Shown here: in pieces, positions 43,103-47,542 of the stretch | Layout: each line of letters begins with the position of its first letter | How positions within the stretch are numbered: the stretch's first letter is position 1 | DNA from: Streptomyces globisporus | GTDB taxonomy: Bacteria > Actinomycetota > Actinomycetes > Streptomycetales > Streptomycetaceae | Assembly: GCA_014649555.1 (NCBI GenBank) | Contig: BMTG01000005.1 | Location: 417,704 to 481,703 of the forward strand | DNA: 64,000 nt | Direction: 5' to 3' | Notes under the pieces: generated by a model | What the model was told of the DNA's origin: nothing | The model's database searches: none | What the model saw: only the letters and a program-made list of their open reading frames with translations | Position numbers and translations under genes: made by a program

Positions 43103-43756
43103 TCAGACGAACACGTACGCCACCGTCGTCGCCGCCCCCAGGCCCGCGCCCGCCAGGGTCTGGGCGACGGTGTGGTAGCCGAGGGCGACCCGGGACCAGC
43201 AGACCGCCGCGGTCAGCGCGTACGCGGCGATCCACCAGGGGGAGTGCACGACGGCGAGGAGCGAGACGGCCGCCGAAGCCACCGCCGAGTCGACCGAGAT
43301 CTTCCACACCGTGTTGACGGCCAGCAGACCTATCGTCATCACCCACAGCGCGAGCATCGCGACGAGGATCCCGGTCGGCGCGCTCCCCAGCACCATCACC
43401 ACCGAGCCGGTGCCGATCGAGCCCAGGATCACGAAGAAGATCGGCGCCCGTTTCGTACGGTCCACGACGTGGCGGTCGCCCCAGGTGCCGCGTCCGCGCT
43501 CCCACTCGATGTACCCGGCCGGGATGAGCCCGGCGCAGAGCGCCCCGAGGAAGCCCCAGAGCAGCCCGGTCCAGTCGCCGCCCGCCGCCGCGAGGCCGAT
43601 GCCGAGCATGCCCGCCAGCAGCACGTTGCGCGGCTGGAGGACGTCGGTGACGGTGCGCGCCACGGAGGCCGTGCGGGCGGAGGTGGTGGGGATCCCCTCG
43701 CCGGTCGTCCCCCGGCCCGGGGCGCCGTCGGTCGTGGGGGCCGTGGTGCCGGTCAT
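43103..43756 (-). CDS. PAP2-like membrane protein, last gene of the XRE/ImmA operon
   Basis: A 217-residue protein with a Thr/Gly-rich start and about six hydrophobic segments. VVDRTKRAPIFFVILG and SRVALGYHTVAQTLAGAGLGAA recall the first and last motifs of PAP2-type phosphatases (the SRxxxGxH pattern with a conserved His), so a lipid phosphatase acting on polyprenyl or phospholipid phosphates is plausible. The motifs are degenerate, so activity is not certain. Its ATG overlaps the stop of the upstream membrane-protein gene (ATGA), showing translational coupling within the operon. Confidence 0.8.
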   Translation of the reverse strand: MTGTTAPTTDGAPGRGTTGEGIPTTSARTASVARTVTDVLQPRNVLLAGMLGIGLAAAGGDWTGLLWGFLGALCAGLIPAGYIEWERGRGTWGDRHVVDRTKRAPIFFVILGSIGTGSVVMVLGSAPTGILVAMLALWVMTIGLLAVNTVWKISVDSAVASAAVSLLAVVHSPWWIAAYALTAAVCWSRVALGYHTVAQTLAGAGLGAATTVAYVFV

Positions 43757-45024
43757 GCGCTCGTCTCCGTCGTGCGGGCCGTGTCGGCCGTGGCTGTGGC
43801 GAGGACGGCGCGGGCGCGCTCCTCGTCGACCGTCCGGTACGCGGCGGCGACCCGGACCAGCCGGGCCACCTCGCCGTCCTGGTCCGCGGCGTGCTGGGAG
43901 GCGACCGTCGCGGCCCCTCCGGCGGGTGCGCCGGACTCCTTCGCGAGCAGGGCGGCCCGGATCCAGTAGGCGTCGGTGAGGGACGCGGCGCGGCGCGGGT
44001 CGTCCGTGTCGCGGGCGGCGGCCCGTCCGGCGGCGTCGAGCAGCCCGTCGGGCACGTAGTGGCGCAGCTTCTCGGCGGCGTCCGCGATGTCGGCGGCCCA
44101 GCGGTCCACCCGCAGGTCGGCCGGGACGTTGAACCGGGTCAGCTCGCGGGGGAGGGACGCGGGCGGGTCGAACGGCTGCTCCGGGAACGCGGTCATCAAC
44201 TCGTACCAGAGGGCGTGCAGCCGGACCTGGGCCCGCCACAGCCTGGCCCGGCGCGCCCCGGCCGCGAACGCGGGGATGGACGCGCCGAGGGCGAAGAAGG
44301 CGAACAGCACCAGCTGCGCGGCCTCGGTGATCTGGTCGAAGCGCAGGGCGAACGCCTCGCTCGGCTCGTCGACCACGCTGATCCACAGGAAGAGCGTGCG
44401 GCTGACGGTGTAGCCGACGCCGATGAACATCGCGAACGTCATCATCCCGAGCCCGATGCGCAGATGGCGGCGGCGGGCGTCGAGGGTGGCCAGCGCCCAC
44501 TGGAAGGCGCAGACGGCGGACGCGGCCCCGAGGTAGAGGTAGAAGACGCTCATGTAGAGCGTGGCGCCCCACTCCCCGGCGTGGTCGGAGACGAAGCGGT
44601 CCGAGGGCTCGGAGCGGTCGACGACGGTGAAGAACAGGACGGTCAGCAGGATCAGCGTGGCGACGGAGGCCTTGGCCGCCAGCTTCTGCACGAGCCGTGC
44701 GAACCGTACGTGGCGGGGGACCGCGCCCTCTTCGGGGTAGCTGCCGTAGATGGCCACGATGTAGCTGAGGATGGCCAGAATTGCCACCGTGGCGGTGTAG
44801 TGCTTGATGAGGACGGCGAGGTCGGTGACGGCGCTGTTGTTGAGGCCGATGCGGACCGCCTCGGTCTTCGTCCACAGGGCGATGGCGAATCCGGCGTAGC
44901 AGCCCCACAGCGCCCGGCGTCTGCGGTCCTCCTCGTCGCCCCAGAGGGCAGCGGGCATACGCCACAGGGCAACGGCCGTCATCAGGCCCGCTATGAGGTA
45001 GCCGGCGAGATCGAGCGGGGTCAC
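43753..45024 (-). CDS. Seven-helix membrane protein, MAB_1171c-like putative transporter
   Basis: A 423-residue protein. Residues 1-265 hold about seven hydrophobic helices (LAGYLIAGLMTAVALWRMP, then YTATVAILAILSYIVAIYG, ASVATLILLTVLFFTVV, LYMSVFYLYLGAASAVCAF and others). The rest is a cytoplasmic domain (LHALWYELMTAFPEQPFDPP, LRVDRWAADIADAAEKLRHYVPDGL, LTDAYWIRAALLA). I recall this order as the MAB_1171c family, which is found beside XRE regulators in actinomycetes; transport has not been shown to my knowledge, and the cytoplasmic domain looks more like a sensor. The GTG start has GAGGA upstream. It is coupled to the PAP2-like gene. Confidence 0.82.
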   Translation of the reverse strand: MTPLDLAGYLIAGLMTAVALWRMPAALWGDEEDRRRRALWGCYAGFAIALWTKTEAVRIGLNNSAVTDLAVLIKHYTATVAILAILSYIVAIYGSYPEEGAVPRHVRFARLVQKLAAKASVATLILLTVLFFTVVDRSEPSDRFVSDHAGEWGATLYMSVFYLYLGAASAVCAFQWALATLDARRRHLRIGLGMMTFAMFIGVGYTVSRTLFLWISVVDEPSEAFALRFDQITEAAQLVLFAFFALGASIPAFAAGARRARLWRAQVRLHALWYELMTAFPEQPFDPPASLPRELTRFNVPADLRVDRWAADIADAAEKLRHYVPDGLLDAAGRAAARDTDDPRRAASLTDAYWIRAALLAKESGAPAGGAATVASQHAADQDGEVARLVRVAAAYRTVDEERARAVLATATADTARTTETSA

Positions 45025-45090
45025 GGCGGTGTTCGTCCTCGGGGTCGGGGTGCGGGGGTGGGGCCCGCGGGCGGAGACCGGTGGCACGTG

Positions 45091-45678
45091 TCAGGTGTCG
45101 CCGGACCGTCTTCCGGGGAAGAGGCCGCGCCTCCGGTGGGCCACCGGGCGGGACAGGGAGTTGTCCAGCCGCCCCACCATGTCATCGGTGGTGAGGTCCC
45201 GCGCCATCCGGGGGATCAGGGAGGCACCGAATTCGGCCATGCGTTCGTCGTGGGTGTCGTACTGGGCACGGGCCTGGACGATGCCGCCGCCGGAGGCGAA
45301 GGACTCGGCGGCGGCCGGAGAGATCATCCGGGCGATCAGCGAGGTGTCGAAGACCGGCAGGAGCGTGCGCAGTTGCTCCGCGTCGAGCGTCGTCCCGTGG
45401 TCGAACCACTCGTGGCACAGCTCGTGCAGGATCACGTGCTGGGTCTGGTACGCGGTCGGCCTGCGGCGGTAGAGGACCAGGCTGGTACCGCCCGCCTTCA
45501 GGCGCAGCCCGCAGGCGGCGTTGACGCGGGCGAGGCGGTCCGGCATCTCGTGCAGCCGGATCGTGCGCCCGCCGGCCTCCTCCATGTTCGCGACGAGCCC
45601 GTCCAGCGTGAAGGGAACCGGGAGGGGCAGGTCGGCGAGCCCGGCCTCGCACTCTTTCCGCAGTTTCCGCAGGGACAT
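45091..45678 (-). CDS. ImmA/IrrE family metallo-endopeptidase
   Basis: A 195-residue zinc peptidase. The HExxH motif is His85-Glu-Leu-Cys-His89, followed by Glu90 and a further Asp-His (HVILHELCHEWFDH). The upstream strand TSLVLYRRRPTAYQTQ is the usual substrate-side strand of the family. ImmA and IrrE cleave a partner HTH repressor on a stress signal and so derepress genes. The XRE-like gene ends 10 bp upstream, which makes its product the likely target. No ribosome site precedes the ATG, so translation may be coupled or begin from an internal leaderless transcript (TAGCGT lies 7 nt upstream). Confidence 0.9.
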   Translation of the reverse strand: MSLRKLRKECEAGLADLPLPVPFTLDGLVANMEEAGGRTIRLHEMPDRLARVNAACGLRLKAGGTSLVLYRRRPTAYQTQHVILHELCHEWFDHGTTLDAEQLRTLLPVFDTSLIARMISPAAAESFASGGGIVQARAQYDTHDERMAEFGASLIPRMARDLTTDDMVGRLDNSLSRPVAHRRRGLFPGRRSGDT

Positions 45679-45688
45679 GACGAAGACG

Positions 45689-46219
45689 CTACGCTGCCGG
45701 GCCCCCGGGGCGGTGGTTCGCGGCGGAATCTTTGCCACCGCTCTCCCCGGCGGGGCCCTCCCGCTCCCGGGCGGCATCCTCCAGCAGGGCCAGGGCGAAC
45801 CGCAGCAGTTCCGGCGGGAGGCCTTCGTCGTCCAGGCCCCGGCCGGCCACGCCGCTGATCTCCCCGGTGCGGCGCTTGGCCAGGAACTGGAGTCCGGCGA
45901 CGACGTCGTCGACGACCTCGGACTCCTCCTTGAAGAAGCGCCAGTCCACGCCGAACCCCAGCCCGAGGGCCTTGAGGATGTCCTCGGAGGGCTGGGTGAC
46001 CTTGCCGGCCAGGATGTTGGAGAAGTAGCTGTGCGACAGCGAGCCGCCGCGGTCGCGGACCAGTTCGGCGAAGACCCGGCCCGAGATCTTCTGGCCGGGG
46101 AAGGTCTTCTCGACCATGTACTCGACTTTTTCCCGCAGCGAGTCGAGGCGGGGCAGCTCGTCGGGGCCGGGGGCGTCGACGGGTTCCGGACCGCGTTCGT
46201 CGCCGTCGTCCATGGCCAT
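45689..46219 (-). CDS. XRE-like helix-turn-helix regulator
   Basis: A 176-residue protein. After an acidic N-terminus, residues ~30-95 form a lambda-repressor-type domain (MVEKTFPGQKISGRVFAELVRDRG, then LSHSYFSNILAGKVTQPSEDILKALGLGFGVDWRFF). A helical part follows (EVVDDVVAGLQFLAKRR, PPELLRFALALLEDA). The ATG is chosen because GGAGG lies 5 nt upstream. It is the first gene of the operon, lies 10 bp before the ImmA/IrrE gene and is the expected substrate of that peptidase. The gene is preceded by the structured leader and intrinsic terminator at 46289-46473. Confidence 0.87.
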   Translation of the reverse strand: MAMDDGDERGPEPVDAPGPDELPRLDSLREKVEYMVEKTFPGQKISGRVFAELVRDRGGSLSHSYFSNILAGKVTQPSEDILKALGLGFGVDWRFFKEESEVVDDVVAGLQFLAKRRTGEISGVAGRGLDDEGLPPELLRFALALLEDAAREREGPAGESGGKDSAANHRPGGPAA

Positions 46220-46288
46220 CCGGGCCTCCACGATCACCTCGGAGTCGGAACTGAGCTTGCGCAAACACTCTACGTCACTGTTAACTCG

Positions 46289-46509
46289 AAAAAACACGGG
46301 CAGGGGACCACGAGGGGAGTCCCTTGCCCGTGAATGACCCTGTGCCCCGCCCTGCCCGGAACAGGCCTCGTGCGGGGCCTGGAGCAGGCTCCGGACCGCC
46401 CGCCGGACCCTGCTGCGAACCGGCTCCGGACAGGGGTGTAGCCCTTCACGACGGGGGATGCGTGAAGGGCTACGCGTGCATTATGGCCCCGCGGTCCTCC
46501 CGACGACAA
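46289..46509 (-). ncRNA. Structured leader or small RNA with its own promoter and intrinsic terminator
   Basis: On the minus strand a -35 TTGTCG (46504-46509) and -10 CATAAT (46480-46485) are 18 bp apart, predicting a start near 46473. There a perfect 13-bp hairpin begins (46438-46450 with 46461-46473). The next ~95 nt contain several nested stems closed by ACAGGG/CCCTGT (46430-46435 and 46338-46343). The end is a 14-bp stem with one mismatch (46295-46308 and 46319-46332) followed by six T (46289-46294). The RNA of about 185 nt ends 70 nt before the XRE start codon. It may be a free sRNA or an attenuator for the operon. Confidence 0.6.
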
Positions 46510-46526
46510 CTGACCGGTCGGTCAGT
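46509..46526. promoter_or_regulatory. TetR-type palindrome next to the leader promoter
   Basis: ACTGACCG-GT-CGGTCAGT, perfect 8-bp arms with a 2-bp centre, touches the -35 box of the leftward leader promoter. The GACCG/CGGTC half-sites are typical of TetR-family operators. No TetR gene lies nearby; the one at 8629 seems tied to a different site. Confidence 0.5.
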
Positions 46527-46597
46527 GATCTGCGGGAGGGCCGCGAGGGCGGATCCGTGCGGCCCTTCGCGGCCACCCGAATCTGATCCGGTCGCGA

Positions 46598-46626
46598 TAG
46601 ACATGCCCTTGCCGGGCGATTAGGGT
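46598..46626 (+). promoter_or_regulatory. Promoter of the MerR-type gene
   Basis: TAGACA (46598-46603) and TAGGGT (46621-46626) are separated by 17 bp, a good sigma-70 (HrdB) match. The leader would be about 95 nt. Confidence 0.55.
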
Positions 46627-46726
46627 TTCTTGTGCAGTCACGGAAAACAGTGGTACGCAGCAGAGGTGCACCCCGCAGGCGTACGGCGCCCGGCTCCTCC
46701 GGGCGCGCGTGAGGGAAGAGGTGCAG

Positions 46727-47047
46727 ATGCCCCCGGAGACCCCCTCGCACGCCGCCGGCCGGCTCGACGACGACGACTACCCCGCGTACACGATGGGGCG
46801 AGCCGCGGAGATGATCGGTGCGACGCCGGGGTTCCTCCGAGCGATCGGCGAGGCCCGCCTGATCACCCCGCTGCGGTCCGAGGGCGGCCACCGCCGCTAC
46901 TCCCGCTATCAGTTGCGCATCGCCGCCCGCGCCCGCGAGCTGGTCGACGGCGGCACACCCGTCGAGGCCGCCTGCCGCATCGTCATCCTGGAGGACCAGC
47001 TGGAGGAGGCGCTGCGCCTCAACGAGGAGCTGCGCCGCGCCGACTGA
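46727..47047 (+). CDS. MerR-type helix-turn-helix regulator
   Basis: A 106-residue DNA-binding protein: AYTMGRAAEMIGATPGFLRAIGEARLITPLRSEGGHRRYSRYQLRIAARARELVDGG is a complete MerR winged helix. A short helix (AACRIVILEDQLEEALRLNEEL) for dimerisation follows; there is no metal or drug-binding domain. The ATG has GAGG 5 nt upstream. In Streptomyces such small MerR proteins occur beside cold-shock genes, as here, and may control them. Function otherwise unknown. Confidence 0.87.
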   Translation: MPPETPSHAAGRLDDDDYPAYTMGRAAEMIGATPGFLRAIGEARLITPLRSEGGHRRYSRYQLRIAARARELVDGGTPVEAACRIVILEDQLEEALRLNEELRRAD

Positions 47048-47152
47048 ATATCTGTATTCGGCAGCACAGAATTTCGCGCAATGCCCGATGAGGCTTTTTA
47101 TGGTCCGGCCCGGCCGATGATATTGGGCACTGCCTCTCCCTGGTCGTCGTGC

Positions 47153-47338
47153 TAGTGTTGATCTCAGTTGCAGTTGTGGTTCCCAAAAACTTCAAATGCC
47201 TCTGCCGACCGGATGTCGGCAGGTGCATTTTTGTCTTTCCGGTGTTCATGTGTTCTTCCGGACGGGGTAATCATCGCGGCGACGTGGGGTCCGCACAGGG
47301 CGGGCCCACGGGCTCTGCGCCCTTAAAGGAGATATGAC
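47153..47338 (+). promoter_or_regulatory. Long 5' leader of the cold-shock gene
   Basis: A TAGTGT box (47153-47158) would start an RNA near 47165, giving a leader of about 175 nt before the csp ATG; no strong -35 was seen. The leader is AT-richer than its surroundings, contains an intrinsic terminator at 47196-47232 and ends with a strong AAAGGAG site. Long structured leaders are characteristic of cspA-type genes. The 105 bp before it, after the MerR gene, show nothing certain. Confidence 0.5.
47196..47232 (+). terminator. Intrinsic terminator inside the csp leader
   Basis: Arms at 47196-47209 and 47215-47228 pair at 12 of 14 positions (8-bp CTGCCGAC stem plus 4-bp ATGC, with a 2-nt internal loop), loop CGGAT, followed by T5-G-TCTTT. 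It is a textbook terminator located upstream of a coding gene on the same strand. Confidence 0.75.
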
Positions 47339-47542
47339 ATGGCTACTGGCACCGTGAAGTGGTTCAACTCGGAAAAGGGCTTCGGCTTCATCGAGCAGGA
47401 CGGCGGCGGCGCCGACGTCTTCGCCCACTACAGCAACATCGCTGCCTCCGGCTTCCGTGAGCTGCAGGAGGGCCAGAAGGTCTCCTTCGACGTCACGCAG
47501 GGCCAGAAGGGCCCGCAGGCCGAGAACATCGTCCCCGCCTGA
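47339..47542 (+). CDS. Cold-shock protein (CspA family)
   Basis: A 67-residue single OB-fold RNA chaperone: [19 protein letters not shown] (RNP1 motif KGFGFI) and DVFAHYSNI (RNP2-like motif), ending QAENIVPA. It binds single-stranded RNA and keeps mRNA unfolded. AAAGGAG lies upstream of the ATG, a far stronger ribosome site than those of most genes here, which predicts high expression. A 12-bp terminator hairpin follows the stop. The DEAD-box helicase gene is next on the same strand, a natural partner in RNA remodelling. Confidence 0.97.

Follow-up and report, generated by a model that had tools for sequence, protein, structure and literature searches.

A Predicted Small RNA Gene of Streptomyces globisporus and an Apparently Widespread Actinobacterial Hairpin Family with a Nearly Fixed C-Rich Loop

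Anatomy of the Locus

A 64,000-nt stretch of Streptomyces globisporus DNA (assembly GCA_014649555.1, contig BMTG01000005.1, positions 417,704 to 481,703; hereafter the window) contains a structured minus-strand element in front of a regulator gene. Positions 46473-46289 of the minus strand are probably the gene for an independent noncoding RNA of about 185 nt, a Streptomyces paralogue of a family of the class Actinomycetes. The stems of this family vary freely and its C-rich ten-letter loop, CAUCCCCCGU, is almost fixed; it looks like a widespread actinobacterial family. Structure, strand, family and spread were supported by comparative sequence data, and transcription was inferred from the promoter and terminator anatomy. 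The element is made up of the following features:

46509..46526, no strand: inverted repeat ACTGACC-GACC-GGTCAGT, an operator-like candidate that abuts or overlaps the -35 box
46504..46509, minus: -35 box TTGTCG (sequence, sigma-70-like promoter scan)
46480..46485, minus: -10 box CATAAT, with an 18-nt spacer from the -35 box and 6 nt between box and first hairpin
46438..46473, minus: 5'-terminal hairpin hp1, 13 perfect pairs, loop CATCCCCCGT, family-defining (folding, homologue comparison, covariance models)
46333..46437, minus: linker, 105 nt here and 16-314 nt in 64 homologues, not conserved (homologue comparison)
46295..46332, minus: terminator stem hp2, 14 pairs, C-rich loop region UCCCCUCGUG (folding, compensatory changes in homologues)
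46289..46294, minus: T-tract TTTTTT, predicted RNA 3' end (sequence; invariant in 40 aligned rows, which were chosen by a regular expression that demands T6)
46256..46288, minus: conserved block CGAGTTAACAGTGACGTAGAGTGTTTGCGCAAG, with TAGAGT (46272-46267) as candidate -10 box (conservation in aligned rows)

The promoter was the sole sigma-70-like match in 45500-47500 (1 found, 0.1 expected from shuffles). The predicted RNA of 184 nt folded at -109.7 kcal/mol, and the shuffled mean was -84.2 kcal/mol (z -5.96, 0/200). hp1, with the sequence GTAGCCCTTCACG-CATCCCCCGT-CGTGAAGGGCTAC, had a folding energy of -22.8 kcal/mol (z -7.4), and hp2 one of -26 kcal/mol (z -5.2). A simple terminator scan returned 2 sites in 2 kb against 1.0 expected and was weak by itself; the terminator call is supported because of conservation.

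A first-pass annotation of this DNA had predicted a minus-strand promoter TTGTCG-N18-CATAAT, a perfect 13-bp hairpin from 46473 and a strong stem with six T 70 nt before the start codon. The promoter was borne out by the sequence and the promoter scan. The hairpin was found where predicted, its first base 7 nt past the -10 box, and the stem with its T-tract lies at 46332-46289, with the ATG at 46219. Nested stems had also been described between the two hairpins. They are present in the window, where the linker was more stable than its shuffles (z -2.05), but a conserved linker structure was rejected: homologous linkers were free in length and had a mean z of -0.8 (63 homologues, one of the 64 being too short), with 12/63 below -2.

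The inverted repeat at the promoter resembles a TetR-type operator. It was found by regular expression upstream of 52/80 named homologues (defined below), and 10/80 fitted a second expression for a different promoter type, TTGAC..TGTCATAATG. The other 18/80 fitted neither expression, some of them being near variants. A perfect site for the repeat pattern used occurred only once in the host genome, and sites with 3 mismatches were no more frequent in the window than expected by chance.

Conservation of the Two Hairpins

BLAST comparison with 199 Streptomyces genomes showed conservation of the promoter, the 36-nt hp1, the terminator and about 35 nt downstream, and none of the linker. hp1 was present in 30/199 genomes by pattern search, and the T6-linked conserved block, with up to 3 mismatches allowed, in 22/199. 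A scan of named genomes yielded 81 stretches, 80 of which were used as named homologues; by title these are Streptomyces, bar one, [Kitasatospora] papulosa. The -10 box (CATAAT or CATACT) was 6 nt from the hp1 stem in 75 of the 80, 7 nt in 4 and 8 nt in 1. Seven versions of hp1 occurred among them, with changes at four pairs, all compensatory or G-U; the loop and the six outermost pairs were prescribed by the search pattern. The distance from hp1 to the T-tract ranged from 54 to 352 nt in the 64/80 homologues with a T6 block.

In alignment A1, the window's own group of 25 rows (21 distinct), 100% of hp1 cells were paired and double changes occurred at 2 pairs, which was reached by 5/500 shuffles. 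In hp2, over the 40 rows, double changes were found in 6/14 pairs, 93.8% of cells were paired and 0/500 shuffles reached the observed score; pair 22-35 was unpaired in 18/40 rows. Conserved stems and compensatory changes in homologues, the comparison for which the first-pass annotation had called, were thus both found for hp1 and hp2.

The block that follows the T-tract (46256..46288) is a candidate for the regulator gene's own promoter or operator; TAGAGT could serve as its -10 box, and no good -35 box was seen. A second conserved block, close to GTTACAGTACGAGCCCGTTGACCGAATCGA, was observed about 100-200 nt past the T-tract, ahead of the regulator gene, in homologues with longer leaders (L010-L012, L014-L018, L020, L021 and L024). 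It is absent from the window leader.

One Loop on Unrelated Stems

The covariance model R1, which covers promoter and hairpin, gave 30 strong matches at 72-94 bits, then a gap, then matches at 56 bits and below. All 18 weaker matches examined, mostly the best-scoring ones, carried GCATCCCCCGTC between differing stems, usually just 3' of a -10-like box as judged by eye. Each of the three occurrences of GCATCCCCCGTC in the host genome is the loop of a perfect stem, which has 6, 14 or 12 further pairs.

In a set of 23 diverse hairpins, paired cells made up 95.7%, compared with 65.4% after shuffling. Double changes were present in 11/13 pairs, and 0/500 shuffles reached the observed covariation score. 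The nine inner pairs of 52 distinct stems comprised 418 Watson-Crick pairs, 46 G-U, 0 A-C and 4 others, under a counting rule that treats G-U and A-C alike, with some loci taken from models trained on this strand and the 10-nt loop required throughout. Since G-U pairs form only in the RNA of one strand, the 46 G-U against 0 A-C indicated that the RNA strand is the strand downstream of the promoter.

The loop was also found in viral contigs, where 80 of 106 stretches were used. GCATCCCCCGTC lay on stems of at most 5 pairs in 74 of these and at least 10 pairs in 6, the pattern having already demanded one C-G pair; in the host genome it was a hairpin loop in 3/3 cases. The six virus-classified contigs with long stems (L226, L249, L250, L258, L206 and L210) all carried the copy in a stretch of 67-70% GC. 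They could either be mobile or mimic RNAs of the host. L258, the one of the six that was searched, had no named-phage match. A candidate named plasmid copy was discarded, as the PLSDB match of L189 was without the loop.

Copies in the Host Genome and Distribution of the Family

A second covariance model, R2, describes the hairpin without the promoter; Infernal E-values are rough here. R2 detected three copies in the host genome, one beside a DUF5926 gene, one near moaA and the window copy. The DUF5926-side copy is a single hairpin. The copy beside moaA, whose product has Radical_SAM and Mob_synth_C domains, has two hairpins with loops CAUCCCCCGU and UCCCCCCGUG and a U-tract. The window copy likewise has two hairpins, with loops CAUCCCCCGU and UCCCCUCGUG, and an expanded linker. 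The C-rich cores common to both hairpins suggest one mode of action.

At E<=0.02, R2 matched 198/199 Streptomyces genomes, and the top match in every one of them had an E of 3.7e-7 or below. At E<=0.001 it matched 103/394 class genomes (43/137 genera), 40 of them Streptomyces and 63 others; 23 of these 63 scored at least 43 bits. In a phylum-wide sample 18/396 genomes matched, 12 being Streptomyces and six lying outside the class at 31-42 bits. None of these six was counted. L427 (37 bits) and L428 (35 bits) look like chance, and L429, L430 and L431 were left unassigned. The sixth, L426, scored 42 bits and has CACCCCCCGU as its loop, preceded by a TAACGT box; it may be a distant relative in the family, which may then reach beyond the class.

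The non-Streptomyces class set consisted of 22 loci (L363 and L377-L397), 18 of which were counted, giving 19 hairpins because L393 has two. L395 (41 bits) and L396 (40 bits) were judged non-members. L391, with a mismatch adjoining the closing pair, and L397, with loop CGUCCCCCGU, TATGGT upstream and a T-rich tail, look like members and were left uncounted. A TAnnnT box stood 5-9 nt upstream of 17/19 hairpins, compared with 0.9% of positions in the same loci. At least 5 T occurred in the next 10 nt after 11/19 hairpins (mean 4.5; for L381 the stem as counted took in the T run). DUF5926, GDPD, DUF4446 or prephenate dehydratase (PDT, pheA-type) genes adjoined 14/18 loci, and the Streptomyces copy G000:C5:365040 also adjoins DUF5926 and GDPD genes.

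At positions 1024-1187 of L393, two family hairpins whose loop-closing position is A were observed about 160 nt apart on one strand. One of them closes with A-U instead of G-C, and the loop of L392 begins with U.

Comparison with Known RNA Families

The first-pass annotation had recognized no known riboswitch or RNA family. This holds for Rfam 15, which gave no credible match, and for the open-licence literature. At gathering thresholds the only Rfam match in the window was a tRNA, and a relaxed search (E up to 10) of 46200-46560 gave ten sub-threshold matches, mostly to microRNA models, none credible. Twenty family loci gave no match at gathering, and the relaxed searches, which covered two short stretches in all, gave nothing credible. 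In the open-licence literature nothing relevant to the loop sequence was found among the matches listed, and the scr39xx names were absent. The family is apparently uncatalogued within this scope, outside which most subscription papers lie.

6C RNA (RF01066) was rejected as an identification. It consists of two stem-loops, each loop with six or more C (PMC8388888), and the window loops CAUCCCCCGU and UCCCCUCGUG have 5 C, or 4+1 C. No 6C match occurred in the window; the host 6C gene is on another contig (G000:C14:46339-46414; 47.6 bits, gathering score 47), and two weaker 6C matches in the host genome (27 and 21.7 bits) do not correspond to the window element. The available parts of PMC8388888 and PMC11678152 mention 6C and other Rfam small RNAs (sRNAs), none of which could be linked to the loop family. 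In Mycobacterium abscessus B11, a reporter with a six-G leader was still repressed when either C-rich loop was singly mutated, according to the portion of PMC10470900 at hand. 6C and mycobacterial B11 resemble the window element in being actinobacterial and small, with two hairpins carrying C-rich loops, but differ from it in sequence and in the loops. The M. tuberculosis 6C RNA is reportedly the subject of a study cited beside B11.

Northern-confirmed Streptomyces sRNAs with C-rich loops, scr5583/sar2652/svr5279 and scr1434/sar6912/svr1031, are described in the accessible part of Moody 2013 (PMC3765725), as is svr5535, a 41-nt single-hairpin RNA. The C-rich-loop sRNAs share with the family their conservation in Streptomyces, a comparison made by description and not by sequence. 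A search of the open-licence literature found five sRNA names of Moody 2013 mentioned in that paper alone. The S. coelicolor scr5239 is likewise a conserved Streptomyces trans-acting sRNA but has 159 nt, five stem-loops and the core binding motif GCUGCGG, as far as the consulted text of PMC4365011 describes it. LhrC of Listeria is an sRNA present in several copies. Its UCCC motifs, one of which lies in the loop of the terminator, are redundant and bind a G-rich site upstream of a start codon (PMC4132741, in part). LhrC differs in being a Firmicute RNA and in having been shown experimentally. We know of no sequence kinship between LhrC and the family.

When compared with the class of C-rich-loop sRNAs of the anti-Shine-Dalgarno type, the family keeps its C-rich loop while the stems vary, and the window element has its own promoter and intrinsic terminator, as judged from sequence. 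To our knowledge, targets are known for few Streptomyces sRNAs, and deep conservation is rare among actinobacterial RNAs. The loop family is not in Rfam 15; it is present in 198/199 sampled Streptomyces genomes and beside the same neighbour genes in other genera of the class. Short, multicopy and nearly constant in its loop, this RNA offers a single testable sequence for studying RNA-based control of translation in actinobacteria.

Interpretation of the Element

The annotation had left the choice between an independent RNA of about 185 nt and attenuation of the operon. The independent-RNA reading is favoured over attenuation because of the comparative data. The layout of two hairpins plus U-tract is shared by the moaA-side copy and the window copy, and in one named homologue (L103) the two hairpins are merely 7 nt apart; both were counted for an independent RNA, as were the strand-specific wobble pairs, the covariation of the hairpins, the start-site spacing, the spread and synteny of the family, and the finding that every host occurrence of GCATCCCCCGTC is a hairpin loop. 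The element is only loosely tied to the operon that follows it, judging by the loci without a detected terminator block and by related hairpins at unrelated places.

As an independent RNA, the transcript would start at the foot of hp1 and end at the U-tract after hp2. The ancestral form was probably a transcript of about 45-50 nt beside DUF5926, DUF4446 or pheA genes, a single hairpin at +1 with loop CAUCCCCCGU, followed in many cases by a U-rich stretch. The stems would present one or two C-rich loops (CAUCCCCCGU; UCCCCUCGUG). Pairing of C-rich loops with G-rich leaders is known. By analogy with 6C/B11 and LhrC, the loops of the window RNA may bind G-rich stretches in the ribosome-binding sites or leaders of several mRNAs and reduce the translation of these. 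Through the operator-like repeat at its promoter, the window copy would be turned on under its own particular condition. A bolder version is put forward tentatively: an ancient class-wide RNA whose loop CAUCCCCCGU is read by one dedicated partner (an RNA site, the ribosome or a protein), whose ancestral hairpin at +1 is both the whole body and the terminator, and which multiplied in Streptomyces under different promoters, with copies in virus-classified contigs.

In a transcription attenuator, the leader would terminate before the regulator operon unless a signal permits read-through. The terminator does sit between a promoter and a gene, and hp1 is also present in 21/22 sampled genomes with the T6 block. 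However, neither a conserved antiterminator nor a ligand domain was found, the linker is free in sequence and length (16-314 nt) and there is no Rfam riboswitch. Furthermore, genome G010 has the block without hp1 ahead, 16/80 named loci retain promoter and hp1 without a detected block, and the TAGAGT block past the T-tract could be the gene's own promoter, even though a good -35 box is lacking. Attenuation was thus considered improbable. Slightly less improbable, but still unlikely, is that hp1 is a 5'-terminal mRNA element, such as a stability hairpin or protein site, that stands before whatever gene follows and does not act in trans. Its near-fixed loop suits a protein ligand, and in loci without the regulator cassette hp1 lies at the predicted +1 before different genes, encoding a PAP2-like protein or a homologue of an 85-aa protein. 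The T-rich stretch or terminator after 11/19 non-Streptomyces hairpins and the moaA-side host copy argues against this.

A DNA-level reading, in which a repressor binds an operator palindrome at +1, would account for a perfect inverted repeat at the start site, and compensatory changes would keep a palindrome too. The excess of G-U over A-C mismatches and the asymmetric, nearly fixed loop make it very unlikely. Fortuitous GC-rich hairpins and ordinary terminators with similar-looking loops do occur among the weaker model matches (L395, L396, L427 and L428, 35-41 bits). As an explanation of the family, chance is hardly credible given the bimodal stem lengths, the start-site spacing, the synteny and the strand-specific wobble pairs, and it is disfavoured for matches above about 43 bits.

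Several results weigh against an independent, trans-acting RNA. The 16 named loci without a detected terminator block are matched by 9/30 sampled genus genomes that also keep promoter and hp1, and in some genomes without the block hp1 would be an mRNA leader element. One of the 16, L103, has a variant terminator 7 nt after hp1. Fewer than 5 T occur in the next 10 nt of 8/19 non-Streptomyces hairpins, and several single-hairpin Streptomyces copies have weak U-tracts. In A1, a slid-column control at shift +2 gave a covariation of 0.075 compared with 0.056, but with 52% of cells paired. The invariance of the loop is partly built in, as the patterns required it and the training hairpins of R2 had a fixed loop; even so, R2 recovered the variants UAUCCCCCGU (L392), CGUCCCCCGU (L397) and CACCCCCCGU (L426, outside the class). 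In the host genome, the loop region has no perfect 12-nt complement other than at the three hairpins. Pairing with assorted G-rich sites would also not need a 10-nt loop so nearly fixed, and a single conserved partner could fit better.

Neighboring Genes

The following genes flank the element:

45689..46219, minus: EspR-like helix-turn-helix regulator gene, ATG start assumed (predicted fold)
45091..45777, minus: HExxH protein (HELCHEW), called ImmA in the first-pass annotation (motif only, family not confirmed)
43753..45087, minus: third gene, MAB_1171c family putative transporter (DUF6545) (family match)
46709..47047, plus: divergent MerR-family gene, upstream of the RNA gene (family match)

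The regulator had been labelled XRE. A helix-turn-helix regulator is retained, with a Pfam match that was sub-threshold only (E 0.038), and the predicted fold suggests that EspR-like is the better description. Its model had a predicted local distance difference test score (pLDDT) of 70, and the best Foldseek PDB matches were 3qf3 (EspR) and 3r1f, with E of 2e-4 and above and a TM-score of 0.37 of the query. All ten Foldseek matches with E below 1e-3 were chains of these two entries; we take 3r1f to be EspR too. A weak phmmer PDB match to superoxide dismutase (E 0.0033) was taken as chance. For the protein labelled ImmA, the HExxH motif was confirmed, but the metallopeptidase Pfam match was only sub-threshold; its single-sequence model was poor, with a pLDDT of 46.

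The MerR gene was divergent in 39/80 named homologues and not found in 33, and 8 had too little sequence. The regulator gene was located downstream in 63/64 named loci with the T6 block, the remaining stretch being too short for a decision. Of the 16 loci without a detected block, 14 showed no regulator gene, and the other 2 stretches were likewise too short. At several of these block-less loci, hp1 precedes the PAP2-like gene (Pfam PAP2 below cut-off, E 0.0063) or the homologue of the 85-aa protein. In L106, a decayed-looking terminator/operator block was observed between hp1 and the PAP2-like gene, which suggests that this locus formerly had the regulator cassette and then lost it.
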